Program-made: the position numbers and the translations under genes | Source of the DNA: a virus | Virus record (IMG/VR): IMGVR_UViG_3300044591_001807 | Span: 1-25,597 of that record | Strand: one strand, 5' to 3' | Length of the DNA: 25,597 nt | Notes under the pieces: generated by a model | Database searches by the model: none | What the model was told of the DNA's origin: nothing | Seen by the model: only the letters and a program-made list of their open reading frames with translations | Part shown: positions 549 to 13,472 of the stretch, piece by piece | How positions within the stretch are numbered: position 1 is the first letter of the stretch | Layout: each line of letters opens with the position of its first letter

Positions 549-565
549 ATTATATTTCACCTACC

Positions 566-1894
566 TTATTTAATTAATTCTGTTACGGAACCGAGGAAAG
601 AACCGTTCCACTTTGATTTTTTGATTGTTACTTCCTGTGACCCGCCAAGGTCAGAGGACTTCTTAATTGCAGTCTCTGATTCTACTGCATCGACACGCTT
701 TTGTACGCCATCAATCGTGTTCTTGATATCTTCTACAGCCTTTGAAAGTGCTGCATTTTGTTCTGCCAATTCTGAAATACGAACATCAGCGCTCTTGCTA
801 AATGCTTCAACTGTTTCTTTAATAGTTGAAACTTGAGTAGCATTTGCTTCTGAAGCCTTATTTAGTGTTTCTGAGAAAAAGCCTTTAAGATCGCCAAGCA
901 TCTTTGCAAAATCAGGTTCATCAACCACAACTTCTGATACGTCGGCTGCTTTTTCTAGAGATTCGGCAGAAGCGTCTGCTACTGCATCTGCAGGAGCTTC
1001 TTCAACAGCTGGTGCTTCCTCTGCGGGAGCATCTACTGCTGTGTCTTCTACGATTGCTTCTGGTGCTACTGCATCTTCTGCAATTACGTTTTCTGTATTT
1101 TCTGACACTTCTTTACCTCCTTCTATGTCTGCCTGTTTTGCAATTTGTGTTTCAGGCGTCGACAATCTTGACTTTTTGTGTAAATCAAGAATCTTATCTA
1201 TTTCTTTTGCTTTGTTAACATCGTTTGACTCTACCCAACCAATTAATGTTGCAGGCTTACCTGTAACTGGGGAATCATAAGATGACTCTTTTGATACAAA
1301 CACTGAATCAGTATCTGCACAATAAAAAATATTTTCTGCTACAACTTCTGTTGCCATTCCTTTAAATACTAGCTGACCATTCATTTTCTGAACAGACAAG
1401 ATGTTGCATAGTTCATTTGCTGGAGAGTCAACTACTGACAATTCCATCAATGCATATTCTTTAATAAATCTTACTGGCTTACCTGTAGACTTGTTAACTT
1501 CGTTTTCTGAATCTACAATCTTTCCGCCAATTGAAAATCCTGCTAATGTTCCATCTAGAATTTTTTCCCAAGTGTCTTGGGCACCTTTTGAAATGTATGC
1601 ATCAACATAAACTCCATTGTAAAATTCTTTTGTTGTTGGATCATAAAATGTTTCTGGCTTAAATGAAACCATTTTGCCAACTGCATTTGATCCATGCATC
1701 TCACGAATGTTTCCACGAAAACTTTCAAACGCTTTTAGACTTGCTTCAGCAGTAACAACATCGCCAGTCTGGTCGATATTATCTAAAGTTGCAAATCCTG
1801 AGACAGTTCTTTTTTCACGGTTAACTTTAGTAAAAGGAACCGATAATGTAAGGTTGTCGCCATGCGAAGACCATAGTGATTTTTCAATGTTCAT
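566..1894 (-). CDS. Prohead serine protease fused to scaffold-like domain
   Basis: 442 residues. Residues about 15-165 look like a phage prohead (maturation) protease of the HK97/U35 type. The probable catalytic His67 lies in REMHG and Ser121 in GTLAGFSIGG, followed by the conserved MELSVVDSPAN segment (about 150-160), which may supply the acidic residue. Residues about 255-330 are a low-complexity Ala/Glu/Asp/Val linker, and about 330-415 form a predicted coiled coil with heptad-like Leu, Val and Ile. The protein ends in a basic, Ser/Lys-rich tail. This acidic plus coiled-coil part is what a delta/scaffolding domain looks like, so protease and scaffold appear to be one polypeptide. The gene sits between portal and capsid genes. 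No ribosome binding site precedes its ATG; a -10-like TAAAAT lies 7 nt upstream instead. Confidence 0.88.
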   Translation of the reverse strand: MNIEKSLWSSHGDNLTLSVPFTKVNREKRTVSGFATLDNIDQTGDVVTAEASLKAFESFRGNIREMHGSNAVGKMVSFKPETFYDPTTKEFYNGVYVDAYISKGAQDTWEKILDGTLAGFSIGGKIVDSENEVNKSTGKPVRFIKEYALMELSVVDSPANELCNILSVQKMNGQLVFKGMATEVVAENIFYCADTDSVFVSKESSYDSPVTGKPATLIGWVESNDVNKAKEIDKILDLHKKSRLSTPETQIAKQADIEGGKEVSENTENVIAEDAVAPEAIVEDTAVDAPAEEAPAVEEAPADAVADASAESLEKAADVSEVVVDEPDFAKMLGDLKGFFSETLNKASEANATQVSTIKETVEAFSKSADVRISELAEQNAALSKAVEDIKNTIDGVQKRVDAVESETAIKKSSDLGGSQEVTIKKSKWNGSFLGSVTELIK

Positions 1895-1901
1895 ATGCTT
1901 A

Positions 1902-1930
1902 ATTTTATAACGTTATTGTATATAAGGCAA
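1902..1930 (-). promoter_or_regulatory. Candidate leaderless promoter before the protease gene
   Basis: On the minus strand TTGCCT (1925-1930) is followed after 17 nt by TAAAAT (1902-1907), and the ATG of the protease gene begins 7 nt further on at 1894. No Shine-Dalgarno-like sequence lies before this ATG. The -35 box matches consensus at four of six positions. The position relative to the ATG fits a transcript starting at or next to the start codon. The short intergenic stretch is AT-rich, so a chance match is possible. Confidence 0.4.
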
Positions 1931-1948
1931 ATAATCAGTTGAGTAAGG

Positions 1949-3532
1949 TTATTCGACTTGTCGTCCGTCGCCCTGAGTATTTCGGCCTTCTCCAGAAACA
2001 TCTGGGGAATTTGCAGACCTTTCAGAATCTCTAGATCTGGTTTTTCCTGCCTGTGCTCTTGCCTCTGCCTGTTGCTGTGGCTTTAATTCAACAACTTTAT
2101 CTCCGCCGTCAATAGGGACCAGACCCATTCTAATTCTTACCTCATTAGGGGTAATTACCTGCATCCTTAAATATCTCTCATCAATTTTTGACTGAGTATC
2201 TTCGTCGGTTAGAGTAAGCTCATTAAATTTAAGAAGTAAGGCATCTGTCATTTCTTCAATAATTTTATTTAATTTCTTTTCTAAATTCATTTGAGCTGGA
2301 CGACATACCTGCTCTCTGAATGTTTTGTCTGCATCTCTTGCGACTGCAAGGTTGACTCCTTCTGGAGTTCCAATTTTATTAATTGGGACACGATGAGATA
2401 ATAGAATTTCGTCTCTATTAGATTTACGATATACGTTAAATGAAGACTCCTGAGTTCCAGCTTCAATTGGCTCCATCTTAAATTCAACCTTTGAGTCTGG
2501 TGAATCTGGTGGAAGAGGAATGTATAAAGATCTATGATTTTTACCCCTTAGACCTACCTGGAAAAACTCGAGTAATTTACGCTCAGACTCTGTTGATAAC
2601 TTAGCACCCTTTACGGTGATTATATATCTTGGAACCGCCTTGTTCTCAAAGTAGTCAAGGTTGTACTTTCCTGCAAACTCGTTTCCAGCCATAGCATTTG
2701 AAGATGCCACGATATCTGGGATTCCATAGTAGTTATTTGTTGGCGTGTATTTCTTTAGATGAATAATTTCATTTGGTCTATCTAGTCCTCCTGCAATTGG
2801 GTTCTCTGTTTCTTGATCTCCAAAGTTGCGGAAGTATACTGCCTTACCGTATAACAACTGAATAAAGCCGTCACGAAGGCGACGAACACGCATTGTCTTT
2901 GCTGGGATATGTCCTATATATCCAATTCTTCCAGCAGAAGTTCTACCAATTTCTATATAACCATTTCCTGTTGCTTCAACATCAGTGTAGACTTTAATTA
3001 ATGTTTCTGTAAATGTTTCTTCTTCGTTGCACTGCTCTAGCCAATCATATAAGTCTTGACGAAGTCTATTTAGCTTTCTACGTGCACGATCTAATGCTTT
3101 ATCATCTGTAATATTATCAAATGCTTCTTGAGTCTTACGTGTTTCAATAAAGTCGTGTCCAAGACCAACAATATTTGAAACCTTAGCGTTAATTGCTGAA
3201 TAGTTGTATGGAGAAATTTCATAAATAGTTGAAAGGTAATCTAAGTTGTATGGTGGCTCTATAAGATCGAACATGGCGTAGCCAGTAATTGCTTGTGCCA
3301 ATAAATTTTGTTGTGTTTCAGTTCCTTCAATACCTTGAAATCTTTTTTGTAATTCCCTACTCATCTTTCGACGGAATGCAGGACTTAAACCCGATATCTT
3401 TGTGAGGTCTTCTCCGCTTACCTTAAATAGGTCTGTGCTTGTTTGCTCTCTTGGAGTATTAAACTTCATCCAGTCGGCAACATTAGATATAGCGATCTCT
3501 TGTGAATCATTGTCTTCTTCGTATTGAATCAT
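1949..3532 (-). CDS. Phage portal protein
   Basis: 527 residues, the usual size for a portal of the PBSX/HK97-like group. The portal forms the dodecameric ring at the capsid vertex through which DNA enters and leaves. Recognisable stretches are the N-terminal LDYLSTIYEISPYNYSAINA, NGYIEIGRTSAGRIGYIGHI, and NEIIHLKKYTPTNNYYGIPD (about residue 254). These are followed by a long helical region and LLSHRVPINKIGTPEG, with GVPPxxxG-like character. The last 35 residues (RSRDSERSANSPDVSG and on) are polar and probably disordered. The ATG at 3532 overlaps the stop codon of the preceding small gene by one base (TAATG), so translation is coupled. The next genes are the protease and capsid genes, as in a standard head module. 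No terminase gene is next to it within this window. Confidence 0.93.
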   Translation of the reverse strand: MIQYEEDNDSQEIAISNVADWMKFNTPREQTSTDLFKVSGEDLTKISGLSPAFRRKMSRELQKRFQGIEGTETQQNLLAQAITGYAMFDLIEPPYNLDYLSTIYEISPYNYSAINAKVSNIVGLGHDFIETRKTQEAFDNITDDKALDRARRKLNRLRQDLYDWLEQCNEEETFTETLIKVYTDVEATGNGYIEIGRTSAGRIGYIGHIPAKTMRVRRLRDGFIQLLYGKAVYFRNFGDQETENPIAGGLDRPNEIIHLKKYTPTNNYYGIPDIVASSNAMAGNEFAGKYNLDYFENKAVPRYIITVKGAKLSTESERKLLEFFQVGLRGKNHRSLYIPLPPDSPDSKVEFKMEPIEAGTQESSFNVYRKSNRDEILLSHRVPINKIGTPEGVNLAVARDADKTFREQVCRPAQMNLEKKLNKIIEEMTDALLLKFNELTLTDEDTQSKIDERYLRMQVITPNEVRIRMGLVPIDGGDKVVELKPQQQAEARAQAGKTRSRDSERSANSPDVSGEGRNTQGDGRQVE

Positions 3533-3876
3533 TACTGTCCCTCTGCCCTTAAATTTTTAATTTCGTCTTTATAGTTTCCAATATCCAAAGGATCAGGAAC
3601 TAGTCCCCACTTAAGTCTTTGCTCTTGTTCTGCGTATTCTTCATCTGTAATTTTGCGTCTTGCTGAAAGAAATTTAGGCCCGCCTTCATATATACCGAAT
3701 GTGCGAACTTCTCTAGCCAAAGCATCGATTCTGGATCTATTGCCTTTTTTCGACGTGATCGAAAGATAATTCCCATCTTCGTCTCCAATCCATCTGCCGT
3801 CTGGCATTTCCCAAACATATATGCCTAGCGTTGACTCTTCCTGCAGAATCTTTGTATTTGCTTTACTAATATCCAT
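3532..3876 (-). CDS. Small conserved protein preceding the portal
   Basis: 114 residues; I do not recognise a named family. The N-terminal part has a beta-rich motif with YVWEMPDGRWIGDEDGNYLS (residues 20-39). A basic helix with SRIDALAREVR (48-58) follows, and the C-terminal half is charged and helical with DEEYAEQEQRLKWGLVPDP (78-96). No signal peptide or membrane segment is visible. The gene heads the head operon and is translationally coupled to the portal (TAATG overlap), so a role in head or connector assembly is plausible but only inferred. Its ATG has no Shine-Dalgarno sequence. An extended -10 box, TGGTAAAAT, ends 8 nt upstream, suggesting a leaderless or nearly leaderless message. 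Confidence 0.8.
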   Translation of the reverse strand: MDISKANTKILQEESTLGIYVWEMPDGRWIGDEDGNYLSITSKKGNRSRIDALAREVRTFGIYEGGPKFLSARRKITDEEYAEQEQRLKWGLVPDPLDIGNYKDEIKNLRAEGQ

Positions 3877-3884
3877 AGAAGTTT

Positions 3885-3925
3885 ATTTTACCATTCTTTA
3901 TGGCCTAAGTCCAGCTTTTTGTCAA
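3885..3925 (-). promoter_or_regulatory. Candidate promoter for the head operon
   Basis: The minus strand carries TGGACT (3908-3913), a 17-nt spacer and TAAAAT (3885-3890) with an extended TGG just before it; the ATG of the next gene lies 8 nt downstream. A perfect TTGACA also occurs at 3920-3925, spaced 17 nt from a weaker CATAAA (3897-3902). The two possible core promoters overlap. Either would place the start of transcription within about 15 nt of the start codon at 3876. Confidence 0.5.
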
Positions 3926-3939
3926 GGCAGATGACAAAA
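3917..3939 (-). other. Inverted repeat after the LamG gene
   Basis: TTTTGTCA and TGACAAAA form a perfect 8-bp stem around a 7-nt loop, starting one base after the stop codon of the LamG gene. On the minus strand no U-tract follows the stem, so it is a poor intrinsic terminator. It overlaps the TTGACA of the downstream promoter, so it could instead be an operator site or a weak transcription block. Confidence 0.5.
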
Positions 3940-5694
3940 TTATATGCTTTGTAGAACGACCCAGTCATTATTATAATACTTTGTGGCTAATTCTGTCATG
4001 GTTATGGCATTTTCTGTAATTGATTCCACAGGCTTTCCGCAATAAAGCTCGAAGTGGGTTTCAATTTTTGATGCTGTTAACTCAGAGTTGTAGGTAGCAA
4101 TATTCTTATAAAGGTTGCTTGGCCCTCCCGACCCCGACATAAGCTCATAATTAAATCTTAATTCTGCAGTTACTGGATCAGTAAATACGATTACAATGTG
4201 ATGTGGCTCTTCTTCAACTAAATAGGAACTAATGTTTGTTTGATTAGTTACATCTACATTGTTTACATATATCTTGGCTATATTGGCCTTAGAAACCACT
4301 CCAGAGCCGTTCCAGGCTAGTCTGGTAGTAGAAGGGTTGTAGGCATACAAAAGGGTGTTAGCGGCCAACGTAAGGGGCGTAAAGAACATCTCTATAGACT
4401 TCACAGAAGTAGATGAATTTAAACTAAATCCTGATCCACTTTTAGCCCTAATTCCATTCATATAATGTCTTGATAAAATTGGGTAATTCAAGGAGCCTAA
4501 GTAATAATCAGTTGAAGAGGTTATTTTATCCCCAAAATTATCTGCATATATTGTTCTATCAGCATAAAATGTTATACAAAAGAATGATAGTTTTGGTAGA
4601 TATTTGCTTGCATCTGTAGTAGACATTGTAATTCTAATGTATACGTTACCGCTAGAGTTAAATGAATCTTTAGTATATTGTGGCAATGGCTGTCCATTTA
4701 CACACTGAGAATATGCAATTCCATCTACACTAGACTCTACTGTAATTCCTAGATCATTCCGCCATTCAATTTTTGAAGTAGTTAAGCCTATTTGTGAAGG
4801 AACGAAAAAGTAATCATTTATGATAAAGGTTTTGGCTTCGACTGTATCTGTTTTATAAAAAGAAATGTATCTGTTATTTGAATCGTAGTATGTGTTTTCA
4901 TCTACAAAATCTGACCACGCCTTGCTTGCTGGATATGAGTAGTCCATTACAGCTTTAATGTTTGCATCTGTTCCAGTGAATAATATTCCTTTATCTGGAT
5001 AAACAACATTAATTGCGGAAGTAGAAATATTTCCATCTACATAATGCTTTCTTATAGAATCAGGCTGTAGTCCATATCTGTATACAGCTGGAGCATCTAT
5101 AATAAATGTATCTCCGACAACTGATGTTGGGCCTACCTGTAATCCTAGTGTTGTGTTTGTAAATTTAAAATTAGATAAAGCTTTGGAGTCAACGGCAAAT
5201 GAATCTATATATAGGGTAATAGCTCCTACTGAGTAAACTCCGACAAGGTGTATGGACTTCTTACTGTATGTAACGCAGTATCTAATTGATTCTGTGTCTG
5301 ATACCTTAAATAATATATCTCCATTTTCCCAGAATAAACCTATGTCATTTGTTGGGTCTGCAAATATTGGTGTCTCTGAAGAAGATTCAATTGATGGGTG
5401 TATCCATGCCTCTATTGTAAAATCATTATCTGAAGTATATTTTGTTCCAAAGCCCGCTCCGACAGTTGCTCCATAATAATCTTTTGTAACAGGTAAAGTT
5501 ATATATGCTGTATTTGTAATGCGGGTTCCAGAAACTCCACCAGAAACTAAGGGAAGTATATTTGATACAGGAGATCCTACATAGGTAGCATTATTTCCAC
5601 ATCCAGAAATATCTGTAGCGGTTGTACCAGAAGACTCATCCAGGGGCCAGAAGCCTATTGGGTAGTCCTTGATAACCTTCATCTGATATGTCAT
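3940..5694 (-). CDS. LamG/concanavalin-like tail adhesin
   Basis: 584 residues. The N-terminus (about 8-215) has the signature of a LamG-type jelly-roll domain: DYPIGFWPLDESSGTTATDI near residue 10, then NNATYVG, FTIEAWIHPS and HLVGVYSVGAITLYIDS. These domains bind sugars or proteins and are common on phage receptor-binding proteins. The middle (about 250-400) is a further beta-rich region. A second LamG-like stretch is likely at about 410-550 (KSIEMFFTPLTLAANTLLYA, EPHHIVIVFT). No signal peptide is seen. The ATG has no ribosome binding site; TATAAT ends 6 nt upstream, which suggests leaderless expression separate from the oxygenase cassette. It is probably virion surface-exposed and host-binding; the exact tail position is unknown. 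Confidence 0.75.
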   Translation of the reverse strand: MTYQMKVIKDYPIGFWPLDESSGTTATDISGCGNNATYVGSPVSNILPLVSGGVSGTRITNTAYITLPVTKDYYGATVGAGFGTKYTSDNDFTIEAWIHPSIESSSETPIFADPTNDIGLFWENGDILFKVSDTESIRYCVTYSKKSIHLVGVYSVGAITLYIDSFAVDSKALSNFKFTNTTLGLQVGPTSVVGDTFIIDAPAVYRYGLQPDSIRKHYVDGNISTSAINVVYPDKGILFTGTDANIKAVMDYSYPASKAWSDFVDENTYYDSNNRYISFYKTDTVEAKTFIINDYFFVPSQIGLTTSKIEWRNDLGITVESSVDGIAYSQCVNGQPLPQYTKDSFNSSGNVYIRITMSTTDASKYLPKLSFFCITFYADRTIYADNFGDKITSSTDYYLGSLNYPILSRHYMNGIRAKSGSGFSLNSSTSVKSIEMFFTPLTLAANTLLYAYNPSTTRLAWNGSGVVSKANIAKIYVNNVDVTNQTNISSYLVEEEPHHIVIVFTDPVTAELRFNYELMSGSGGPSNLYKNIATYNSELTASKIETHFELYCGKPVESITENAITMTELATKYYNNDWVVLQSI

Positions 5695-5700
5695 AATTAT

Positions 5701-5729
5701 ATTATATACTAGATATTACCTTTTATAAA
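5701..5729 (-). promoter_or_regulatory. Candidate leaderless promoter of the LamG gene
   Basis: TATAAT (5701-5706) ends exactly 6 nt before the ATG at 5694, and a second overlapping TATAAT lies at 5696-5701. The -35 candidate TTTATA (5724-5729) is weak. No Shine-Dalgarno sequence occurs in the 20 nt before the ATG. Transcription from the first -10 box would begin at the A of the start codon. Confidence 0.45.
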
Positions 5730-6312
5730 AGAATATGGGAATTAGATATTTGTTCCCAGAGGTTGTTTCTGCAGGTTCATGAAATGTGTCCTTTGACTCA
5801 AAAACAACAACGCTTCCAGCTTCTGGCTTAATGGATATATTGAAATCTGGAAAGTTTATCTCTCCGCCTTCATAGTCGTCATTTAAATAGACAACCATTG
5901 AAACCGTTAGTGGATCTTGGTCATCATCATATGAGTCTATGTGGGATCCCATATATGCGCCAACATCATACTTCTTAATAAAAAAGGTTGTGGGCAAATA
6001 TCCTGGCTCAATACCTGTATCTTTGCAAAAAGACTCTTCGATATTTATAACTTTGTAAGCTAACATAGAGCAAAGCTTTGAGTTTATTTTATCTCCGACT
6101 GTTTGATTTTTAAAATTGTTAAGTCGACATTCCTTTTGTTTACCAAAAACATCATTGGTTCCAGAAGAAGATCTCCACTCTTGCCATGGACCTATTTGTG
6201 GAACATAAGATGGATCTAGATCAGACTCCTCTAGTTCTTTTAAAAATAGACCTGGATCCTCAATAACATTTCTGTAGTAATGCACCTTAGGATGAAGAAC
6301 TTCTTTAATCAT
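5716..6312 (-). CDS. 2OG-Fe(II) oxygenase, prolyl 4-hydroxylase-like (1 of 6)
   Basis: 198 residues, a minimal double-stranded beta-helix dioxygenase. The iron triad is visible: His124 and Asp126 in MGSHIDSYDD, and His178 in DTFHEP. Lys188, ten residues after the last His, is the usual 2-oxoglutarate ligand. The family motif VVYLNDDYEGGEINF (140-154) and IKPEAGSVVVF (161-171) are intact, so the enzyme should be active. The fold oxidises a substrate while converting 2-oxoglutarate to succinate and CO2; prolyl hydroxylation is typical of this subfamily, but the substrate here is unknown. It is the last oxygenase of the cassette and overlaps the preceding gene by 8 nt. Confidence 0.9.
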   Translation of the reverse strand: MIKEVLHPKVHYYRNVIEDPGLFLKELEESDLDPSYVPQIGPWQEWRSSSGTNDVFGKQKECRLNNFKNQTVGDKINSKLCSMLAYKVINIEESFCKDTGIEPGYLPTTFFIKKYDVGAYMGSHIDSYDDDQDPLTVSMVVYLNDDYEGGEINFPDFNISIKPEAGSVVVFESKDTFHEPAETTSGNKYLIPIFFYKR

Positions 6313-7012
6313 ATTTTGCCTTATATTGTAAAGGAGTTCCTTCTTCTTTAGCCTTAGCCCATTCCTTGTAAGTTTCTTCTTGCTCGGCTCTTGTTTGCTT
6401 CAATTCAGCTTCCCACTCCGCTATTTGTTCTGGAGTGTATACAGCATCAGCATTATCCCAAAAAGATCCTACTGTATATCTTTCTGCATTCTTAACAGTT
6501 GACACTTCGTGCTCGTTGCCATAACCACCTTTAAAGAATGCTAGTCTTCCTGGCTTTGGTTTAATGACTATGTCATGATGCTTAAAGTTTAAATCTCCAC
6601 CTTCAAAATTATCATTTAAATATAGGAATCCAGCATATTTACTTTTATAAAATGCAGAGGGAGTTCCATCTTCATGAGTATTGTCTGAATGAAAACTTGC
6701 AAACGCACCGACTACCCACTTTTGTGCATGATAACTAACTTCAGATAGCTCTCTACCAAAACATTCTTCTCCAGCCTTTTTAATTTTTTCTTTCAGTTGT
6801 GAAAAATAATCTCTTGGTAAGCCAAATAACAATAGGTTGTCATCGTGTGGCCAATATCCCATTGCAAAAGATCCGTAGAATGAGATTTGATTCCATTCTA
6901 AAAATCCTGCATTTACAATTCCATCCAGATATCCAATAATTGCACTACATTCTTCTGGTGTTATTAGATTATCTACAACAAAAACGTCATCCTTTAGCGT
7001 TACAATTTCCAT
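6305..7012 (-). CDS. 2OG-Fe(II) oxygenase, prolyl 4-hydroxylase-like (2 of 6)
   Basis: 235 residues. Residues 11-30 (FVVDNLITPEECSAIIGYLD) are the typical N-terminal helix region of these enzymes. The iron ligands are His108 and Asp110 in FHSDNTHEDG and His168 in GNEHEV, with Arg178 as the 2-oxoglutarate ligand. The YLNDNFEGGDLNF motif (131-143) and IKPKPGRLAFF (150-160) are conserved. The C-terminal 45 residues form a charged helix (PEQIAEWEAELKQTRAEQEE) not needed for catalysis, possibly for substrate or protein contact. The gene overlaps the preceding oxygenase gene by 26 nt and has an AGGA ribosome binding site inside it. The substrate is not deducible from the sequence. Confidence 0.9.
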   Translation of the reverse strand: MEIVTLKDDVFVVDNLITPEECSAIIGYLDGIVNAGFLEWNQISFYGSFAMGYWPHDDNLLLFGLPRDYFSQLKEKIKKAGEECFGRELSEVSYHAQKWVVGAFASFHSDNTHEDGTPSAFYKSKYAGFLYLNDNFEGGDLNFKHHDIVIKPKPGRLAFFKGGYGNEHEVSTVKNAERYTVGSFWDNADAVYTPEQIAEWEAELKQTRAEQEETYKEWAKAKEEGTPLQYKAKYD

Positions 7013-7868
7013 AGCCAGCTTCCTCTTCTCTTTCTAATGCCTCTAATGCATATTGTATATCTTGTTCAGACGGCATAACTCTTACGCCATCTTTAAAAAC
7101 TATATTGCCTCCGTAAACATCTTCGGCCATTCTTCTTCTCTCCATTTGAGCCCACTTAACTGCTCCATACTTTGATTGATTAGCTAGCCACTCTTCAGAC
7201 CCTTCGTATGGGTAAAACATAAAGTTTCTAATTAAATATTTATTTCCCTGGGTTGCTGTTCTCACTCCATGATAGTAAGGCTCTCCTGATGGGAATACCA
7301 TAATGTCCCCTGCTTCTGGTTTGTAGGCTGGAACAAACTCTCCGTCTACATAAAACTCAATTTCTCCACCTTCATAATCATCATTTATATAAACAGTACA
7401 AGTTATAAAAAATTGATTACCAGGCATATCTTTTTCTGTTTGCTTAAAATCAGTATGAAATTGCATAGTTAGATTATTTTTTAAAGTGTCTACATTTGTA
7501 TGATATTTACAAAATGATGAGGATCCTAACTCAGAATCTTTTGGAAGCTCTACATTATACTTTTCAATATAATGATCTAGTGCTACATTGTATGCGTCAA
7601 AAACTGTTTCGGCAGCCCAGTATTCGTTATCAAATGTTTCATTTTTTCCAAGCTGGTCTTGGACAGCATCTTTATGCTTTGTACTTGAGTATAAGCCAAA
7701 TGCACTCCATTGATACCACGGATTAAAATAATGTTCTCCAGAGTCTTTATCTTCCTCCGTTAAACCTTCTGTTGATTTTATAATTTCAAAGATCTTTTTA
7801 TGATCTGGTAGCAACCCTTTGTATACTTCAATTTTAGGGTATAACGTTTTTGATACTATATCACTCAT
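6987..7868 (-). CDS. 2OG-Fe(II) oxygenase, prolyl 4-hydroxylase-like (3 of 6)
   Basis: 293 residues, the longest oxygenase in the cassette. The catalytic set is complete: His138 and Asp140 (QFHTDFKQ), His200 (YYHGVR) and Lys210 for 2-oxoglutarate. The YINDDYEGGEIEF motif lies at 160-172 and AYKPEAGDIMVFPSG at 181-195. The N-terminal 130 residues hold a longer helical lid than in its neighbours, and about 70 extra C-terminal residues follow the core. It overlaps the preceding gene by 4 nt (ATGA), so it is translationally coupled. The core resembles cyanophage-type P4H-like enzymes; the target is unknown. Confidence 0.9.
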   Translation of the reverse strand: MSDIVSKTLYPKIEVYKGLLPDHKKIFEIIKSTEGLTEEDKDSGEHYFNPWYQWSAFGLYSSTKHKDAVQDQLGKNETFDNEYWAAETVFDAYNVALDHYIEKYNVELPKDSELGSSSFCKYHTNVDTLKNNLTMQFHTDFKQTEKDMPGNQFFITCTVYINDDYEGGEIEFYVDGEFVPAYKPEAGDIMVFPSGEPYYHGVRTATQGNKYLIRNFMFYPYEGSEEWLANQSKYGAVKWAQMERRRMAEDVYGGNIVFKDGVRVMPSEQDIQYALEALEREEEAGYGNCNAKG

Positions 7869-8536
7869 TCTGAATCCTTATCTAACTTAGAGATTGTCCA
7901 AAACCAAGGCGATGTGTATCTGGTACCTGCTGTAATTACATCGACACCATGAATATAATTCAAGTCTCCAGGGAAAAAATATGCTGCTTTTCTTTTAGGT
8001 CTTATTGCTACATCCTGTTTTGGAAAATGCAGTCTTCCGCCTTCATAATCTTCGTTTAAATAAAATATTGTTCCAATGTCATACCACGGGAAGTTTCCAG
8101 GCTTTCCAGCATCTGGACCTTCATGTAACTCTTTATCTGCATGTGGCCACTGCATAGACCCTACTGGCCATCTGACCAAGCATGGTCCTGTTGGATAAAC
8201 CTCTACATTAAAATGCTTTTCGATAACTGGCTTTAGCCTTTGGATAATCTGCTCTAGCATTACTGACACTTCGGGATTTCCTTTATCTAAAGAAGCTCTT
8301 GTGGCGACACGATCTCTCCATACGTCGTGCTGATAAATTACTGTTCCGTTTTCATTAACCACATCTTGTCCACCGTCCCAAATAGTGTTACCCTTTACAT
8401 AACTTAACAGAAATTCACACTCTTCTTCTGTAAGAAAGTTTTCCACCTCAACAATATTTTCTTTTCCTGCTCCAAAGTATCCTGAGGGTGTAATTGAGGT
8501 TCTATGTGTTCTTAAATCAGATTCATTAACGTGCAT
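7865..8536 (-). CDS. 2OG-Fe(II) oxygenase, prolyl 4-hydroxylase-like (4 of 6)
   Basis: 223 residues. The N-terminal VENFLTEEECEFLLSYV (31-47) is the classical start of the prolyl hydroxylase fold. The iron ligands are His132 and Asp134 in QWPHADKE and His196 in YIHGVD; Arg206 is the expected 2-oxoglutarate ligand. The YLNEDYEGGRLHF motif (159-171) is slightly divergent from its neighbours. Residues 118-131 (PCLVRWPVGSMQWP) and the final WFWTISK are richer in Trp than in the other copies, which hints at a different substrate pocket. A moderate AGGTAG ribosome binding site precedes the ATG, 17 nt after the stop of the upstream gene. Confidence 0.9.
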   Translation of the reverse strand: MHVNESDLRTHRTSITPSGYFGAGKENIVEVENFLTEEECEFLLSYVKGNTIWDGGQDVVNENGTVIYQHDVWRDRVATRASLDKGNPEVSVMLEQIIQRLKPVIEKHFNVEVYPTGPCLVRWPVGSMQWPHADKELHEGPDAGKPGNFPWYDIGTIFYLNEDYEGGRLHFPKQDVAIRPKRKAAYFFPGDLNYIHGVDVITAGTRYTSPWFWTISKLDKDSE

Positions 8537-8553
8537 TTTTTCTACCTATCATC

Positions 8554-9282
8554 TTATTCATATTTCTTGGGGACCCAAGTTTTTTGTTTGTAAACTCCAA
8601 ATTTTTCATTTCCAAGCTCGTCTTGCCTGTAAATTTTTGTATGAGCTTCATGCTTTTCAACCATTTCTTCTTGTGTAAAAAGGTTAACTTCAGACGTCCA
8701 TTCTTCTCTTTTATAAGGAAAAATTTGAGCGTAAGGAGTTCCTTTTTTAATAATACCTTGAAAAGTATTCTTTATAAAAAATGGCATAAGTCCTGGTGGC
8801 CCATACCTATCACTGTCAATTATACCGCTTGTAGTCAAAAAAGGCAGCTCAAAATGATTTATCGGATGTGTTATTAAAGCGCTATACCCCTCTGGCAAAG
8901 TAAATCCCCAGTTTGGATACCAATGATATGACTGCTTATAGTATCCATCTGGATAATAAAACTCACCCATATGAGGTCTAGAGTCACAAAATCCTTCAAA
9001 CCCCTTTTCTGGTTGAATATAAGTAACTTCATTATAGCTGGAAACAGCAACATCGCATGGAGTTGTTAACATATATCCAGATGAAAATACATCAAGTAGC
9101 GCTGGGCACGATTTAAATCCAGGGCCTTTTTTGTTTTTAGGTGGAAAATCTATAACCTTATTATCTTTGTCTGTCCAGTATTTACTGGCATTTAAAAACC
9201 AATTTGGGGTTGTTTTTTTTGCAGGAGACGGAGCGGTGTCCTTGTTATTATAAACTCTATTTGAATTAAAAACAATTTTCAT
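8554..9282 (-). CDS. Conserved phage protein, distant DUF6065-like relative
   Basis: 242 residues, no assigned function. Landmarks are CPALLDVFSSGYMLTTPCDV (about 59-78), ITHPINHFELPFLTTSGIID (about 137-156), and GIIKKGTPYAQIFPYKREEW (about 175-194). The ending G-x-P-x-AQIxP parallels the IKANEPFIAIMP segment of the neighbouring DUF6065-like protein, so the two are probably distant paralogues. No signal peptide or membrane helix is seen. It is embedded in the oxygenase cassette and its ATG overlaps the previous stop codon by 4 nt. This placement suggests a role in the same modification pathway, but nothing in the sequence proves it. Confidence 0.75.
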   Translation of the reverse strand: MKIVFNSNRVYNNKDTAPSPAKKTTPNWFLNASKYWTDKDNKVIDFPPKNKKGPGFKSCPALLDVFSSGYMLTTPCDVAVSSYNEVTYIQPEKGFEGFCDSRPHMGEFYYPDGYYKQSYHWYPNWGFTLPEGYSALITHPINHFELPFLTTSGIIDSDRYGPPGLMPFFIKNTFQGIIKKGTPYAQIFPYKREEWTSEVNLFTQEEMVEKHEAHTKIYRQDELGNEKFGVYKQKTWVPKKYE

Positions 9283-9995
9283 TTTGTTAAATCTTTAACT
9301 CCAAGCTTGATCGATTTAACTTCATGTTCCCCTAAATGGTTTCCCATGTAGTCTACAGCATCTCTATAGTAATCAGTCCATGTTCCTTCAGAATTTGCTT
9401 TTTCTGCTGCTTTCATGGCACCCTCCATTGTAAGCGGTATATCTCTTTTAATTAAAGGAGCATTTCTTTCTTCATCTAAATTAACTGTAGAATTATTTAA
9501 GTCTGTAAGAGATATTGGCATAATTGCAATAAATGGTTCATTCGCTTTTATTGTAATAGGGACAAAAGGTCTGGTAATTTTCCAGGCTACTGGTAGTGGG
9601 CCTTCAAAAAAAGATGTACTTAATATACTAGTAACCGCACTTGCCCCATCTGTAAAACTATTTGGAACTGGAAAGGAAAGAAGGCTATAGTTTTTATCAG
9701 TGACAAAACGTAGGTTAGTTTTAAAATTAATTGTTGCGTGTCCCCTACCCGTTTCACAATATTTTTCTCCCTGAAGGACTTTAACGTTATCTGGATAAGT
9801 ACTAGTAATTCCATCCCACATAAATGTTATATCTTCAGGGAAAGATAGCCCCCAGCCAACCTGGTTACTTAAAGTTAAAGGGAAACATCTATATGCATGC
9901 TTATGGGTAGTTTCGTCCATCCAATTTCTTTTTGCAGAAAGTGGAACTATGTTTGCAGAAAAATCTGAAACTTTATAAGCATTTAAATTAATCAA
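9279..9995 (-). CDS. DUF6065-like conserved phage protein
   Basis: 238 residues. HAYRCFPLTLSNQVGWGLSF (about 33-52), followed by WDGI, GRGHATINF and WKITRPFVPITIKANEPF, matches what I recall of the DUF6065 family, whose function is unknown. The predicted fold is beta-rich and soluble. The best start is TTG at 9995: a GGAAGAG ribosome binding site lies a suitable distance upstream and no in-frame ATG occurs early in the protein. It overlaps the preceding oxygenase gene by 8 nt and the following gene by 4 nt. As it sits in the middle of six oxygenases, a structural or recognition partner role is possible; this is inference. Confidence 0.75.
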   Translation of the reverse strand: MINLNAYKVSDFSANIVPLSAKRNWMDETTHKHAYRCFPLTLSNQVGWGLSFPEDITFMWDGITSTYPDNVKVLQGEKYCETGRGHATINFKTNLRFVTDKNYSLLSFPVPNSFTDGASAVTSILSTSFFEGPLPVAWKITRPFVPITIKANEPFIAIMPISLTDLNNSTVNLDEERNAPLIKRDIPLTMEGAMKAAEKANSEGTWTDYYRDAVDYMGNHLGEHEVKSIKLGVKDLTK

Positions 9996-10743
9996 CTGAT
10001 TTCTCTTCCATTAATTGTTCTGCTGGCTTAAACTTTTTCCCTTCAGTAATATGATTATATTCATAGCTAGCTTCAATTTCTCTGTACAGTGGTGTATGTG
10101 GAGCCTCTTGATAATCTAGCATGGTTACAATTGCATATTTTGTTCCTGATGTTACTGGCATTGCAGCATGAGAATATATAAAGGAAGATGGGAAAAGATA
10201 AAGGTCTCCAGCTCTTGGCTTTACCTTAACGCCAAGCTTGTCAAAAAATAACTCTCCTCCTTCGTAATCGTCGTTTATGTATCCAACTGAAGATAAAACG
10301 CAAACGTAGGAGTACCCGTGATCTGAGTGAACATTAAAGTGTTGATTTTTACCATACTTAATAAAATTAAAAGCTTCCCAATAATTCAATGGTGGAATTT
10401 GAAACATATTCATGTAGTCATAAACTGCTGAAAGTTGAGCAGCCTTTGACTCTCTCCAAATACTGCGTAGCTCAAATTCTTCTTCTGTGAAGTCTTCTGG
10501 CTCGACGTGTGTTCCGTTACCAAGCATTAAGGATCCGCCTTGGTTTTCTTTAATCTTGAAATCCCAAGCATCTCTATAATCTTTATTTAGGGTGTCGTAT
10601 CCAGTCTGAGCAAGGTTCCAGTGTTTCTTGCCTTGTGTTTTAGAAAGAACAGATTCTAGTCTAGTGTCTAAATTATATTCTTTTTTAAATACATCTCTAT
10701 ATACAATAATTCCTGGATAAATTGTTTCTGCATTTGGTAGCAT
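9988..10743 (-). CDS. 2OG-Fe(II) oxygenase, prolyl 4-hydroxylase-like (5 of 6)
   Basis: 251 residues. The iron triad is His139 and Asp141 (NVHSDHGYSY) and His192 (IYSHAAMPV); Lys202 is the 2-oxoglutarate ligand. YINDDYEGGELFF (155-167) and VKPRAGDLYLFPSS (174-187) are clear. It is closely similar to the preceding copy at 10744-11370: both share YGK-Q-F-HSD, the FPSSFIYSH motif and the SGTKY...VTMLDY ending, pointing to a tandem duplication. Compared with that copy it has an insertion around residues 66-100 (ENQGGSLMLGNG and the following acidic stretch). The ATG at 10743 directly follows the stop of the previous gene and has an AAGGAG ribosome binding site. Confidence 0.92.
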   Translation of the reverse strand: MLPNAETIYPGIIVYRDVFKKEYNLDTRLESVLSKTQGKKHWNLAQTGYDTLNKDYRDAWDFKIKENQGGSLMLGNGTHVEPEDFTEEEFELRSIWRESKAAQLSAVYDYMNMFQIPPLNYWEAFNFIKYGKNQHFNVHSDHGYSYVCVLSSVGYINDDYEGGELFFDKLGVKVKPRAGDLYLFPSSFIYSHAAMPVTSGTKYAIVTMLDYQEAPHTPLYREIEASYEYNHITEGKKFKPAEQLMEEKSVD

Positions 10744-11370
10744 TTAATTTGACTCCTTCTTATGCTTTTTGTCAATATAGTCATCATATTCTTTTGAATG
10801 GGCATCATCGTTATAGTCTAACATGGTGACAAAAGAATACTTGGTTCCAGAATTTACTGGAAGAGCTATGTGAGAATAAATAAATGAAGATGGAAATATA
10901 ATTAAATCACCAGCTTTAGGCTCTATGTGTAAATCAAATTTAGGGAAAAACAATCCTCCGCCAGTATAGTTATCATTAGGATATCCTACCAAAGAAACGG
11001 CGGATTTGTATGACCAACCGTCGTCTGAATGCTCCTTAAAATATTGTCCTTTTCCATACTTTACAACATTTGTCCATTCCCAAAAATCCATTCTAATACT
11101 ATACATTTCGCAGTAATCTAGCACGGCTTCTTTTTGACAATTATATATGTCATTATATATATCTATATATTCTGGTAAATTATACATCTTGAGATCTTGG
11201 CAATCTCTATACTCTAGATCCTGATCTTCTAAGCATACGGTAGCTGTATTCCATTTTAAAACACCAGAATCTACCTTATCTTCAATTCTTTGAATTAAGT
11301 TTAAATCTTCTGGGAAAGAATTTGGGTATTTCCATATGCCAGGATATAGTTGTTGTTTATTATATATCAT
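10744..11370 (-). CDS. 2OG-Fe(II) oxygenase, prolyl 4-hydroxylase-like (6 of 6)
   Basis: 208 residues, the first gene of the oxygenase cassette. The iron ligands are His114 and Asp116 (KEHSDDGWSY) and His167 (IYSHIAL), with Lys177 for 2-oxoglutarate. The usual YEGGE is changed to YPNDNYTGGGLFF (130-142), the only copy lacking the acidic residue there. The FPSSFIYSH and VTMLDYNDD segments show a close relationship to the next copy. It has no Shine-Dalgarno sequence; a strong promoter-like TTGACT-N17-TATTAT ends 6 nt before the ATG. The mRNA is therefore probably leaderless, and the whole cassette (11370 to 5716) can be transcribed from here. Confidence 0.92.
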   Translation of the reverse strand: MIYNKQQLYPGIWKYPNSFPEDLNLIQRIEDKVDSGVLKWNTATVCLEDQDLEYRDCQDLKMYNLPEYIDIYNDIYNCQKEAVLDYCEMYSIRMDFWEWTNVVKYGKGQYFKEHSDDGWSYKSAVSLVGYPNDNYTGGGLFFPKFDLHIEPKAGDLIIFPSSFIYSHIALPVNSGTKYSFVTMLDYNDDAHSKEYDDYIDKKHKKESN

Positions 11371-11376
11371 AAATAC

Positions 11377-11405
11377 ATAATATCATATTTAAAAAACCTA
11401 GTCAA
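11377..11405 (-). promoter_or_regulatory. Leaderless-type promoter of the oxygenase cassette
   Basis: On the minus strand TTGACT (11400-11405, five of six consensus bases) is followed after 17 nt by TATTAT (11377-11382) with an extended TGA before it. The ATG of the first oxygenase starts 6 nt later at 11370. The -35 box overlaps the stop codon of the preceding FN3-Hint gene. No ribosome binding site is present. This is the best formed of the leaderless promoter candidates in the window. Confidence 0.65.
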
Positions 11406-12957
11406 TAGTATCTTGTAGGGTTTTACATCCGTTGTAGGCTAGCATTGACTCTGCAATTAATAGCCCCCAAGGTTCTCTATAAATCAAATACACCTTGGTG
11501 TCCTTTTTAACAATTTCAACCTTTTCAACATCTATAAATTCTAATTCATTGTCTTTATAGGATACAATTTGATCGCCTTGTTTTAATTTAGAGCTTGTAA
11601 TAAATTTGTATTTATTTGCTCTTTTTATTAAAATCTGTTCTTGTGTTGATAAATCATACTTTTCTTCATCATTTATTCTAACAATTGAAGCGTAGTCTTG
11701 TTCATTAATATCAAAGACTGTTGACTCAATGTAAGAAACATTTTCTAAAGAATCAGAGTTCCATGCATCTACAAGAGATATGCATTTCTTTGAAACTGAA
11801 CCAATAGTACAGTTTGGATCACCTTCTGGAATTTCGTCAAAGACTGCAGTTATAAGAATGTCGCCATTAACAATTTCTTTAGCTTTCTTATATCCGTCTT
11901 TTGTTAAGACGTTAGTGTTTTCTGGAATACAAAATCCTGGAGGACCAAAGAATCTAGGTGGCGAGAAGAATCCTGGAGGACCAAAAAATGTTGGTGGAGC
12001 AAAGAATCTCGGTGGGCTGAAGAACAGCGGCGGGCTGAAGAATCTAGGTGGGGTAAAGAACAGCGGTGGCACAAAGAATCTTGGCGGGGTGAAGAACAGC
12101 GGCGGGCTGAAAAACAGCGGTGGGCTAAAGAATAGTGGTGGCACGAAGAACAGCGGCGGGCTGAAAAACAGCGGCGGGCTGAAAAACAGCGGCGGGCTGA
12201 AGAATAGTGGTGGGCTGAAAAATAGTGGTGGGGCAAAGAACAGCGGTGGGGCGAAAAATAGTGGTGGTGCAAAGAATCCTGGAGGAGAGAAGAATGTTGT
12301 AACCTGATTAGATGTTGTTGGTGTTGAGTTTCCGTTTGCATTTACGGCAACTACGGTATAAGACTGGGTTGTTCCCATTGTTTCTCTGATATTAATTGTT
12401 GTTGCTGGTGGATTTCCAACAACCTCATATGGAGATGCTAATCCTCCTGGTTGAGCAGAGCTGTCTGAAGAAGTAATTATATACTTAGTTAAAGGCTTGC
12501 CTCCAGAAGTTGAAGCAGACCATGAAACAGTGTCTTGTCCTCTTAAATCGGTTGTGCTATGTCCTGGACCAGTTGTATTAGATGTTGAAGTTACTGTTGC
12601 TGGAGCAGCTGGAACTGTAGTAAATGTAACAGAAGATGAAGCAGCTGATGCTTCTGACTGACCATTAGCATTTGTTGCTTTTACTGTAGCTGTACCAACA
12701 GCTCCTTGAGGAATACCAATAACCGTAATAGGCGAAGATGTTCCAATTTCTGAAAATGATCCTTGTGCGCCACAATTTACAACAACTGTATAGCTTATAA
12801 TTGGTAACTGATCTGGTGGATAATCAAAAGATACTACTGCTGCTGCATTATTAAATGGGCGATTCGTTCCAACATCTGTTAGAGTTACATTGATAGGTGG
12901 TACTGGTAATTCAAAATCACCAGATAATTGAGCTCTTCTACCAACTTTTTTTGCCAT
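11398..12957 (-). CDS. FN3 - (FFxPPx)20 - Hint domain virion-like protein
   Basis: 519 residues with three parts. Residues about 16-221 are two fibronectin type III-like domains (ISYTVVVNCG, TVKATNANGQ; LTKYIITSSD, SYTVVAVNANGN). Residues 222-341 are twenty hexapeptides FFxPPx with x = S, A, V, T or G and then L, R, G or T. Residues 343-509 form a Hint domain, the autoprocessing fold of inteins and hedgehog proteins. It begins with Cys343 in FCIPENTNVLTKDGYKKAKE, then VNGDIL (363-368), SSKLKQGDQIV (455-465) and LIAESMLAYNGC (500-511). The catalytic block-B His seems replaced by Gln441 (TQEQ), and the terminal His-Asn is Tyr508-Asn509 before Gly. N-terminal cleavage or a thioester step may remain; full splicing looks doubtful. 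It lies between fibre genes and the prolyl hydroxylase-like cassette. An AAAGG ribosome binding site precedes the ATG. Confidence 0.85.
   Translation of the reverse strand: MAKKVGRRAQLSGDFELPVPPINVTLTDVGTNRPFNNAAAVVSFDYPPDQLPIISYTVVVNCGAQGSFSEIGTSSPITVIGIPQGAVGTATVKATNANGQSEASAASSSVTFTTVPAAPATVTSTSNTTGPGHSTTDLRGQDTVSWSASTSGGKPLTKYIITSSDSSAQPGGLASPYEVVGNPPATTINIRETMGTTQSYTVVAVNANGNSTPTTSNQVTTFFSPPGFFAPPLFFAPPLFFAPPLFFSPPLFFSPPLFFSPPLFFSPPLFFVPPLFFSPPLFFSPPLFFTPPRFFVPPLFFTPPRFFSPPLFFSPPRFFAPPTFFGPPGFFSPPRFFGPPGFCIPENTNVLTKDGYKKAKEIVNGDILITAVFDEIPEGDPNCTIGSVSKKCISLVDAWNSDSLENVSYIESTVFDINEQDYASIVRINDEEKYDLSTQEQILIKRANKYKFITSSKLKQGDQIVSYKDNELEFIDVEKVEIVKKDTKVYLIYREPWGLLIAESMLAYNGCKTLQDTID
11935..12294 (-). 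repeat. 18-bp coding tandem repeat, 20 units
   Basis: Twenty consecutive 18-bp units encode the FFxPPx hexapeptides of the FN3-Hint protein. On the plus strand the units read roughly GGCGGGCTGAAGAACAGC, with variation at the codons for residues 3 and 6. The middle units are nearly identical at DNA level while the outer ones are more divergent, the pattern left by slippage or unequal exchange at the centre. Unit number may thus vary among relatives without a frameshift, since 18 is a multiple of three. Confidence 0.97.
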
Positions 12958-12971
12958 TTAAATAACCTTTC

Positions 12972-13472
12972 TTAAGCTGTTAAATCACCGAATAGAAGCC
13001 ATGTGTTGGCGTCACGCTTTAAAATTGTTGCCATTGACCATTGAAATCTTAATTTTCTACCTGGAGTAAAGTTTAAAGTTACACCAGTAGCGGCTACAAC
13101 GGTAGTTTGGCCTGTTCCAGATTGCAAAATATCTATGGTTGTTCCAATTGGAAAGTCTACAACAGAATCAAGAGGTATCGTAAAGTTATTTGCAACCTGC
13201 ATTCTGATGTCAATAATTGTGTCTCTTTCATCTAAACTGCTAAGGGTATATGGAAAATATTTAGTGCTAATTCTTGTTAAAGAAGGCACTGCTATTTTAT
13301 CCTGAACACCATCTTGAAATCTTACTGTACCGCCTGAAAGATCAAGGGTTCCCTTTAGCTGGATATTTCCAGCTAAAGTTGTTTCCCCCTGAAATCCAGC
13401 ACGTTTATTTACAGATAGCGAGTTGACCTGAAGGTCTTCGTCGGTGTTAAACTTACCCTTGTTGAGAGCCAT
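12972..13472 (-). CDS. Tail-associated beta-rich protein
   Basis: 166 residues, unknown function. The N-terminal third (NTDEDLQVNSLSVNKRAGFQ) has the short repeated beta pattern of fibre shafts (TTLAGNIQLKGTLDLSGGTV). The C-terminal part (GTTIDILQSGTGQTTVVA, then KLRFQWSMATILKRDANTWL and GDLTA) is a module I associate with fibre and baseplate proteins of aquatic phages. No membrane segment is seen. The gene sits between the 1004-aa protein and the FN3-Hint protein and has an AAGGTAAAA ribosome binding site. It is probably a small fibre tip or attachment protein, inferred from position and composition. Confidence 0.65.
   Translation of the reverse strand: MALNKGKFNTDEDLQVNSLSVNKRAGFQGETTLAGNIQLKGTLDLSGGTVRFQDGVQDKIAVPSLTRISTKYFPYTLSSLDERDTIIDIRMQVANNFTIPLDSVVDFPIGTTIDILQSGTGQTTVVAATGVTLNFTPGRKLRFQWSMATILKRDANTWLLFGDLTA

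Follow-up and report, generated by a model that had tools for sequence, protein, structure and literature searches.

Why would a phage carry six 2OG-Fe(II) oxygenase genes directly after a gene for a long proline-rich repeat? The question is raised by a 25,597-nucleotide stretch of viral DNA (IMG/VR record IMGVR_UViG_3300044591_001807; hereafter, the window). An original prediction proposed that the phage may hydroxylate its own repeat array or, alternatively, a collagen-like stretch elsewhere in the window, and that this might tune stability or receptor binding. Our comparative analysis supports the genetic pairing of array and enzymes but not the collagen-like substrate. From sequence comparisons, we consider it likely that the locus is a dedicated substrate–enzyme module in which a predicted virion protein of a tailed phage has its aromatic-proline array hydroxylated.

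An oxygenase cassette adjoins a repeat-encoding gene

The features of the region are as follows.

12972..13472 (-): tail/virion structural protein, encoded immediately before the array gene (match to phrog_8780 minor tail protein, 1.6e-14; conserved gene order)
11398..12957 (-): array protein gene, 519 aa, with FN3-like N-terminus, 20 x FFxPPx, and Hint-like C-terminal domain (relatives also compared)
12295..12957 (-): N-terminal region of the array gene, residues 1-221 (weak FN3 match; basic N-terminus by sequence)
11935..12294 (-): twenty FFxPPx hexapeptides, residues 222-341, 40 prolines; predicted substrate
11398..11931 (-): Hint/bacterial-intein-like domain from C343, ending ...MLAYNGC... 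(family profile and residues)
10744..11370 (-): 2OG oxygenase, class A, first copy (Pfam 6.8e-11; nearest PDB entry by sequence a prolyl 4-hydroxylase [P4H], E 3.2e-4)
9988..10743 (-): 2OG oxygenase, class A, second copy (Pfam; AlphaFold model with prolyl-hydroxylase fold)
9279..9995 (-): DUF6065 protein (Pfam PF19541, 1.7e-32; model with dUTPase-like fold)
8554..9282 (-): phrog_7084 protein (3.1e-34), distant relative of the DUF6065 protein (23% identity, alignment A4)
7865..8536 (-): 2OG oxygenase, class C (Pfam, class assignment, profile)
6987..7868 (-): 2OG oxygenase, class D (Pfam, class assignment, profile)
6305..7012 (-): 2OG oxygenase, class E (Pfam, class assignment, profile)
5716..6312 (-): 2OG oxygenase, class F (Pfam, class assignment, profile)
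3940..5694 (-): Laminin-G-like protein bounding the cassette, also present in relatives without the cassette

An HxD...H iron triad with a 2OG-binding Lys or Arg is the motif of the 2OG-Fe(II) oxygenase superfamily. All six cassette ORFs matched 2OG-FeII_Oxy_3 (PF13640), five of them above the Pfam gathering score, with the ORF at 7865-8536 just short of it (25.3 bits vs. the 27-bit cut-off). H124, D126, and H178 (residue numbers as in the first protein) were invariant in a six-way alignment, and a distal K or R was readable in each row. The ORFs, Pfam matches, and alignment thus agree with the earlier claim of six intact oxygenases with HxD...H and a distal Lys/Arg, and the first of these starts at 11370, 27 nt past the stop of the array gene, as had been described. 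Six paralogs had also been called an unusually large dose. The number holds, but an excerpt of a report on cyanophage S-SCSM1 gives 24 2OG oxygenase genes, with no repeat substrate named there (PMC9602691).

The array is maintained at the protein level

Counting returned exactly 20 FFxPPx units with 40 prolines, in keeping with the predicted twenty Pro-Pro hexapeptides. The first two bases of the F and P codons were identical across all units, while the third base differed in 44-62% of unit pairs; third-base variation with the first two bases fixed indicates that selection acts on the protein encoded in the FFxPPx frame. Two in-register units matched at least 120 stretches in viral_contigs, compared to 1 match for an out-of-register control in which the pattern was shifted by one base. 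The third-base pattern and this control rule out a chance repeat or a repeat read from the wrong strand.

The array is not itself collagen-like, as its repeat is FFxPPx and Gly-X-Y is absent. The stretch at about 21900 that had been suggested as a substrate comprises a single short GPQGPRG motif without a Gly-X-Y tandem repeat, and a collagen-like (plus S74) fibre gene was found near the cassette at only 8 of 126 array loci; a collagen-like stretch was accordingly rejected as a general substrate.

Neighbouring genes suggest that the array gene product is a virion-type (surface-type) protein. Its N-terminal region matched Pfam fn3 below the cut-off (E 0.0024). Array carriers differed among loci and had 2OG genes downstream; they included proteins with Hint tails, Cys-rich tails, short tails, and, in one case, an S74-like tail.

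The Hint-like domain of the array protein was overlooked in the original prediction. Hint and intein domains are characterized by a start Cys and a penultimate His-Asn. The top PDB match of the family profile (A5) was the bacterial intein-like (BIL) domain 2lwy (E 2.1e-9), whereas Pfam Intein_splicing matched 6 of 12 family members (E up to 0.1) and was below cut-off in the one member detailed. A start Cys was present in 59 of 71 array-protein tails, accompanied by HN, YN, or NN near the end in 51 and by HN in 30; the domain in the window has C343 at its start and YN where HN is expected. The phage version resembles BIL/Hint domains in its match to 2lwy and in the start Cys of most tails, but differs in being C-terminal on a repeat protein with little after it and in the absence of the start Cys from 12 of the 71 tails.

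Five oxygenase classes recur in a near-fixed order

The oxygenases sorted into five main classes (A, C, D, E, and F) in near-fixed gene order, with class A duplicated in the window. Among 69 rows with long downstream sequence (two from cellular contigs, L347 and L351), the orders included AACDEF (21), ACEDF (11), ACDEF (4), and AACEDF (4). Conservation of the metal triad was 0.97-1.00 across classes, and the K/R column of class F fell under the 93% listing threshold. The closest solved structures by profile were prolyl 4-hydroxylases for classes A, C, and F and prolyl 3-hydroxylase 1 for classes D and E. For a structural model of class A, the only class whose fold was compared, 45 of the first 50 Foldseek matches were titled prolyl hydroxylases, and Z scores reached 19.4. 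The prolyl-hydroxylase-like assignment is thus strengthened by profiles for five classes and by fold for class A. However, prolyl hydroxylases figure prominently among the structures solved for this subfamily, which makes the nearest match weak evidence on substrate.

Genes of the sulfotransferase and Asp_Arg_Hydrox (Asp/Asn-hydroxylase) families lay between array and oxygenases at 14 of 126 loci. Extensins and mussel foot proteins are eukaryotic aromatic and proline-rich repeat proteins matured by prolyl hydroxylation; their resemblance to the array would be an analogy of working only, and no homology is claimed. A more elaborate reading is that virion fibres mature by a RiPP-like, multi-step route, in which the five ordered classes hydroxylate the array, some lineages sulfate it, and an intein-like step releases or attaches it, yielding an adhesive akin to extensins or mussel glue. 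We regard this full sequence of events as doubtful.

It is also unlikely, in our estimation, that the enzymes act on the phenylalanines or variable residues of the array instead of proline. Phe content equals Pro content, 1506 of 1599 units (141 arrays, six from cellular contigs) have A, S, or G at position 3 while position 6 varies, and the existence of five separate classes points to at least two kinds of site. Nevertheless, the best solved relatives of all five class profiles are prolyl hydroxylases.

Arrays and oxygenases are linked across viral contigs

A same-strand 2OG gene was identified within 2.6 kb downstream of 93 of 101 distinct array genes (distinct proteins with 2.6 kb or more of downstream sequence available, identical array proteins removed), and eight had none within that distance. 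Class A accounted for 91 of the 93 near neighbours. Array loci also contained 321 2OG ORFs, distributed over 93 of 120 loci, vs. 1 weak match in 120 arbitrary viral loci; these 15-mer control loci were unmatched for phage kinship, unlike the portal set described below. Among the 120 pattern loci, 27 were without a 2OG ORF and 10 without an ORF bearing two in-register units. Pieces of the window itself (L017-L023) were excluded from counts; cellular contigs (L344-L354) were excluded from array-gene and downstream counts and included in class-order and unit statistics. The window, L001, and several other loci are near-identical copies.

When loci were instead anchored on the oxygenase, the array was present at 69 of 80 (64 of 76 new loci within the stretch examined, 4 of 4 already in the set, and L425, where it is located further along the record, beyond that stretch). 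At the remaining 11, the contig ended within 1.1 kb of the first oxygenase. These are the best 80 of 584 matches and therefore mostly near relatives; among them, no array-free cassette of this type, the observation named earlier as counting against the pairing, was found where enough upstream sequence was present. A match of class A strength (E < 1e-95) was detected in 16 of 25 records behind array loci. The other nine (8.5-29 kb) comprised two with E of about 1e-14 to 1e-16, four with a single weak match (1e-5 to 1e-6), and three with none. In this group of bacterial viruses, known from metagenomes, the FFxPPx array is thus nearly always followed by the same prolyl-hydroxylase-like enzyme set, a pattern that suggests viruses chemically finishing a fibre protein of their own.

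Searches beyond this set returned little. Among 50,697 phage records, none matched the cassette DNA, array protein, or DUF6065 protein at E 1e-5, although the repeats were likely masked as low complexity. Screening of 84,980 cellular genomes revealed 11 stretches with three units, six of them with an aromatic-proline array, and no 2OG match was found in the stretches examined of these array-bearing genomes. No description of this system was found in open-licence PMC literature (titles and abstract starts). Other 2OG clusters in the same phages had no aromatic-proline array in five stretches inspected, and distant 2OG relatives stood singly among other genes, without an array, in these phages and in two cyanophage contexts. 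Such lone relatives indicate that the superfamily has other uses.

Arrays and oxygenases are present or absent together in related phages

The portal protein is nearest, among named phages, to that of Streptomyces Stanwilliamsviridae. All 8 portal relatives with the array bear 4-6 2OG genes, while 18 of 19 array-free relatives have no 2OG gene in the stretch examined (Fisher 4e-6, kinship ignored; a kinship-aware test counts just 3 independent changes, sign test p 0.25). The exception (L294) has one 2OG gene and no FFxPPx array, and another repeat protein occupies that slot. Shared presence and absence, the check proposed earlier, is thus seen, with 3 independent changes behind it when kinship is considered. 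Eight array-free relatives (L278, L280, L281, L307, L309, L312, L330, and L343) keep the Laminin-G-like gene, a 114-aa gene, and the portal, and cassette-type oxygenases were not found in the stretches examined. L321 shows the same pattern, with two phrog_7084-like ORFs in addition.

These relatives bear on whether the cassette modifies an adjacent virion protein (the Laminin-G-like protein, the upstream tail proteins, or a collagen-like fibre), with the array gene as a fellow traveller. A tail-type gene and, at many loci, a Laminin-G-like gene flank the cassette, and some loci have the collagen-like and S74 fibre gene nearby. Yet the Laminin-G-like gene, 114-aa gene, and portal persist in inspected relatives whose examined stretches have neither array nor cassette-type oxygenases, collagen-like fibres occur at too few of the loci, and the array is the element common to differing carriers, making this explanation improbable. 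Least probable is that the oxygenases act on host proteins, glycans, or small molecules or shift 2-oxoglutarate, with the array site as a cargo hot spot: this interpretation is given for cyanophage 2OG oxygenases in the excerpted report (PMC9602691), and singleton 2OG genes elsewhere in the same phages and the variable cassette slot fit it, but a hot spot predicts neither the 93 of 101 same-strand followers, nor largely the same classes in near-fixed order, nor the 8/8 vs. 1/19 contrast among portal relatives.

A proposed mechanism and its relation to known systems

If the locus is a dedicated substrate–enzyme module, the array gene would make a virion-type protein with an FFxPPx middle, whose residues, most likely prolines and possibly their neighbours, would be hydroxylated by the class A, C, D, E, and F enzymes, each presumably acting at its own position or step. 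The array is very hydrophobic, and hydroxylation may make it soluble, stiff, or sticky for its role at the surface of the particle. The sulfotransferase-family and Asp/Asn-hydroxylase-family enzymes of some relatives could add further steps, and the Hint domain may self-cleave or join the array C-terminus to a nucleophile.

The best fold, profile, and Foldseek matches were bacterial P4Hs (Bacillus anthracis 3itq/5hv0 and Pseudomonas putida 4iw3) and PHD2, which have HxD...H and the distal K/R in common with the cassette enzymes. However, they share 14-20% identity with class A in Foldseek alignments, and the partners given in the titles of their entries are EF-Tu or HIF peptides rather than repeat arrays. 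T4-like cyanophage 2OG-Fe(II) oxygenases (phrog_61) share the same Pfam domain and PHROG; 169 phage records matched, all at <60% identity and without any single match that spanned 80% of the query, and the two contexts inspected had no array, unlike the cassette here. Chlorella virus PBCV-1 vCPH (5c5t) is likewise a viral prolyl hydroxylase, with Pro-containing peptides as substrates (fold Z 17.2; profile matches to class A, 3.6e-4, and class F, 1.6e-9), but is one enzyme of a eukaryotic virus, whereas the phages here tie several enzymes to one repeat array. An excerpted account states that the role of the PBCV-1 enzyme is unknown and that hydroxyproline was sought in purified chlorovirus virion proteins and not detected (PMC7019647).

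How viruses use prolyl 4-hydroxylase "remains cryptic," in the words of another excerpt (PMC9301287), and viral prolyl hydroxylases have so far been without a clear target. In many phage contigs, the genetics now connects a repeated peptide with an enzyme set that recurs beside it, making enzyme and candidate substrate directly testable. If the proposal is correct, oxygen- and 2OG-dependent finishing of the virus particle would add a new layer to phage biology, and the cassette would offer a compact set of enzymes with which designed repeat proteins could be hydroxylated.

The original prediction also left unmentioned that the cluster includes two genes other than oxygenases (9279-9995 and 8554-9282). 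The name DUF6065 was not found in open-licence PMC literature. The gene at 8554-9282 matched phrog_7084 only, with no Pfam match, and the model of the DUF6065 protein suggests fold similarity to dUTPase (E 1.3e-4).

Organization of the Array Gene and Oxygenase Cassette

The 25.6-kb IMG/VR virus record encodes a protein of tandem FFxPPx hexapeptides (the array), and the gene for this protein is followed by a cassette of 2OG-Fe(II) oxygenase (2OG) genes and their companions.

Genes of the window in order of transcription
Minus strand: glycosyltransferase-like end piece (by eye)
Minus strand: B12-dependent ribonucleotide reductase (TIGR02505 is the top NCBIfam match, scoring 310.6 versus a cut-off of 340)
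Minus strand: several tail/virion genes, upstream of the array gene
11398-12957, minus strand: array gene
Minus strand: two 2OG oxygenases
9279-9995, minus strand: DUF6065 gene
8554-9282, minus strand: phrog_7084 gene
Minus strand: four more 2OG oxygenases
Minus strand: Laminin-G-like gene, 114-aa gene, portal and head protease

The original prediction described twenty Pro-Pro hexapeptides, and these were confirmed as 20 FFxPPx units at residues 222-341. At the F and P codons, bases 1 and 2 are constant in every unit and only the third varies, with differences in 44-62% of unit pairs; it is therefore the peptide rather than the DNA that is conserved. That reading of the gene held for the repeat units but overlooked a C-terminal domain that starts at C343, an intein-like (Hint) domain encoded at 11398-11931 at the end of this phage repeat protein. 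A profile of twelve such tails matched inteins and, at E 2.1e-9, the bacterial intein-like domain 2lwy, as well as all 71 distinct long tails, some of which were used to build the profile. The start Cys is present in 59 of the 71 tails and missing from 12; among those with the Cys, the residues close to the end are HN in 30 and, as in the window, YN in 20.

When the sequences outside the array were grouped by BLAST, the array proved to be a module grafted on differing carriers: some have a Hint tail, others Cys-rich tails or nearly no tail, and one (L039) has a tail that by eye resembles the S74 chaperone. Another array type (FFPPYFPFFPP, FPPFFPP) was identified beside the same kind of oxygenases in three stretches (L323, L327, and L355). 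A few FFxPPx-like arrays were also detected in bacterial genome contigs (L351, L354, and L345), with no 2OG match in the stretch examined.

Gene order is strongly conserved among array loci: a tail-type gene, the array gene, optional extras, one or two 2OG genes, DUF6065, in some cases phrog_7084, several 2OG genes, and often a Laminin-G-like gene. Many of the 126 array loci (a count that includes the window) are incomplete; the frequent companions DUF6065 and phrog_7084 were identified in 86 and 43 of them, respectively. The DUF6065 protein is predicted to have a dUTPase-like fold (model pLDDT 82.8; E 1.3e-4; TM by query 0.39), and tblastn against 50,697 phage records returned no match to it. 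Sulfotransferase-family and Asp/Asn-hydroxylase-family genes lie between array and oxygenases in 14 of the 126 loci (PF03567, 27.0 versus a cut-off of 22, for the one sulfotransferase tested; PF05118, 46.7 versus 22.6). Eight of the 126 loci, L029 and L127 among them, have a collagen-like and S74-chaperone fibre gene at the cassette's far end (Pfam on L127 only).

The 527 distinct full-length 2OG sequences formed, at the chosen threshold, five large classes of 151, 101, 77, 76, and 68 members, with the rest in 14 small classes; the window's two class A genes belong to a single class. Class A was found in 65 of the 69 array rows (two of them cellular) that have 5.5 kb or more downstream; the counts for the other classes were 62 (C), 60 (E), 54 (F), and 53 (D). 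The commonest orders were AACDEF (21) and ACEDF (11). The HxD...H metal-binding residues are retained at 0.97-1.00 in each class.

Linkage of Arrays and Oxygenases

The array is most economically read as the probable substrate of the cassette, whose enzymes would tailor it, with the modified residues and the purpose left unspecified. This reading predicts tight, directional, same-strand linkage, joint presence or absence, retained metal ligands, a modular array on differing carriers, and the extra sulfotransferase.

Viral contigs were searched at the DNA level for two FFxPPx units in register, and at least 120 stretches matched; the same pattern one base out of register matched one. Throughout, 2OG genes were called with a profile built from the window's six oxygenases (E 1e-3); in 120 array stretches (1.07 Mb), we identified 321 2OG ORFs, spread over 93 loci, with 27 stretches lacking one. 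In 120 control stretches picked by an arbitrary 15-mer (0.99 Mb), there was one 2OG ORF (E 4e-4) and no array. A same-strand 2OG gene lies within 2.6 kb downstream of 93 of the 101 distinct arrays that have at least 2.6 kb visible downstream, and it is class A in 91 of these 93. The eight array genes without such a neighbor include three (L016, L056, and L096) where a second array gene in the same stretch is followed by 2OG genes, and four (L080, L101, L115, and L129) with class A-strength matches elsewhere in their records; the 16.8-kb record of L034 has no match of that strength. When 25 records (26 loci) were queried for 2OG matches, 16 matched at E < 1e-95, while one record matched at about 1e-14 and another at about 1e-16. 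Four had no match better than 1e-5 to 1e-6, and three had none; the nine below class A strength are 8.5-29 kb long.

Starting from the oxygenases, we took the best 80 of 584 loci from a class A profile search, which at 54-100% identity are mostly near relatives. An array was found in 64 of the 76 stretches that this search added and in all four that were already in the set; the record of L425 has one beyond the stretch examined (34 pattern matches). In the 11 remaining loci, the contig ends 1-1105 bp from the first 2OG gene.

The original prediction also proposed testing whether related phages gain and lose repeat gene and oxygenases together. Among the best 80 of 575 portal relatives (stretches found via the window's portal), the visible upstream sequence is 8 kb or longer in 27, and eight of these encode an aromatic-proline array with four to six 2OG genes each (the array of L340 being visible only in a longer stretch of its record). 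Eighteen of the 19 array-free relatives lack a 2OG gene in the stretch examined, which covers about 10 kb upstream at most, such that a cassette may lie elsewhere in those phages; the other, L294, has one 2OG gene. Among the 53 relatives with shorter upstream sequence, five have 2OG genes without an array: in L266, L272, L303, and L341 the first 2OG gene begins at the stretch edge, and L295 is closely related to L294. For the 27, Fisher's test gave 4e-6 with kinship ignored. The portal tree has three changes of the array state and four of the 2OG state; none of the three independent pairs has the 2OG state running opposite to the array change (p 0.25), a number of pairs too small to give significance.

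Affinities of the Oxygenases

Bacterial prolyl 4-hydroxylases were the top matches to the class A, C, and F profiles (E 4e-8, 2e-7, and 1e-9), and prolyl 3-hydroxylase 1 was the top match to D and E (5e-5 and 7e-9). Foldseek with a class A model (pLDDT 85.4, from 11 sequences) returned, among the first 50 matches, 45 prolyl hydroxylases by title and five PKHD-type or unnamed oxygenases. The model resembles the Trichoplax prolyl hydroxylase with peptide (Z 19.4), the algal prolyl 4-hydroxylase with (Ser-Pro)5 (Z 19.3), and the P. putida prolyl 4-hydroxylase with EF-Tu (Z 19.1). A fold that this predicted structure shares with prolyl hydroxylases is no proof of substrate.

Extensins and mussel foot proteins may be further parallels to the array and cassette. 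Virus-encoded prolyl hydroxylases are already known, and that of PBCV-1 is a parallel to the cassette; hydroxyproline is reported to have been looked for in the virions of PBCV-1 without being detected (PMC7019647). No paper listed by searches of the open-licence PMC literature describes a phage cassette in which five enzyme classes are linked with the phage's own candidate repeat substrate; that combination would be the new part. Distant 2OG genes without arrays are present in array-bearing phages and in cyanophages, and the claim is therefore limited to this cassette, not the superfamily. Three phage records (G016, G018, and G023) have 14-15 2OG matches in 107-113 kb; in five stretches of such records, the extra 2OG genes had other genes around them and no aromatic-proline array beside them.

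Phage Origin and Genomic Slot

Portal matches were identified in 270 named phage records, 127 of them Streptomyces phages, as were all 25 of those listed (58-60% identity). In two that were inspected, Genie2 and BillNye (both Stanwilliamsviridae), the order is glycosyltransferase, ribonucleotide reductase, endolysin, a large and a small hypothetical gene, and portal, with neither an FFxPPx array nor a 2OG match in the 41 and 35 kb examined. The window's tail genes and cassette therefore occupy a slot in a block that is conserved. In relatives with 78-93% portal identity, the contents of this slot differ. The slot of L294 (about 455-7501), which has no FFxPPx array, encodes a Tyr/Trp/Cys/Gln-rich repeat protein, three phrog_7084-like ORFs, and its single 2OG gene; genes resembling an epimerase and a sulfotransferase were also noted there by eye. 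Such differing contents, and those of L294 in particular, suggest that this slot may recurrently be filled by a repeat protein together with enzymes that tailor it.
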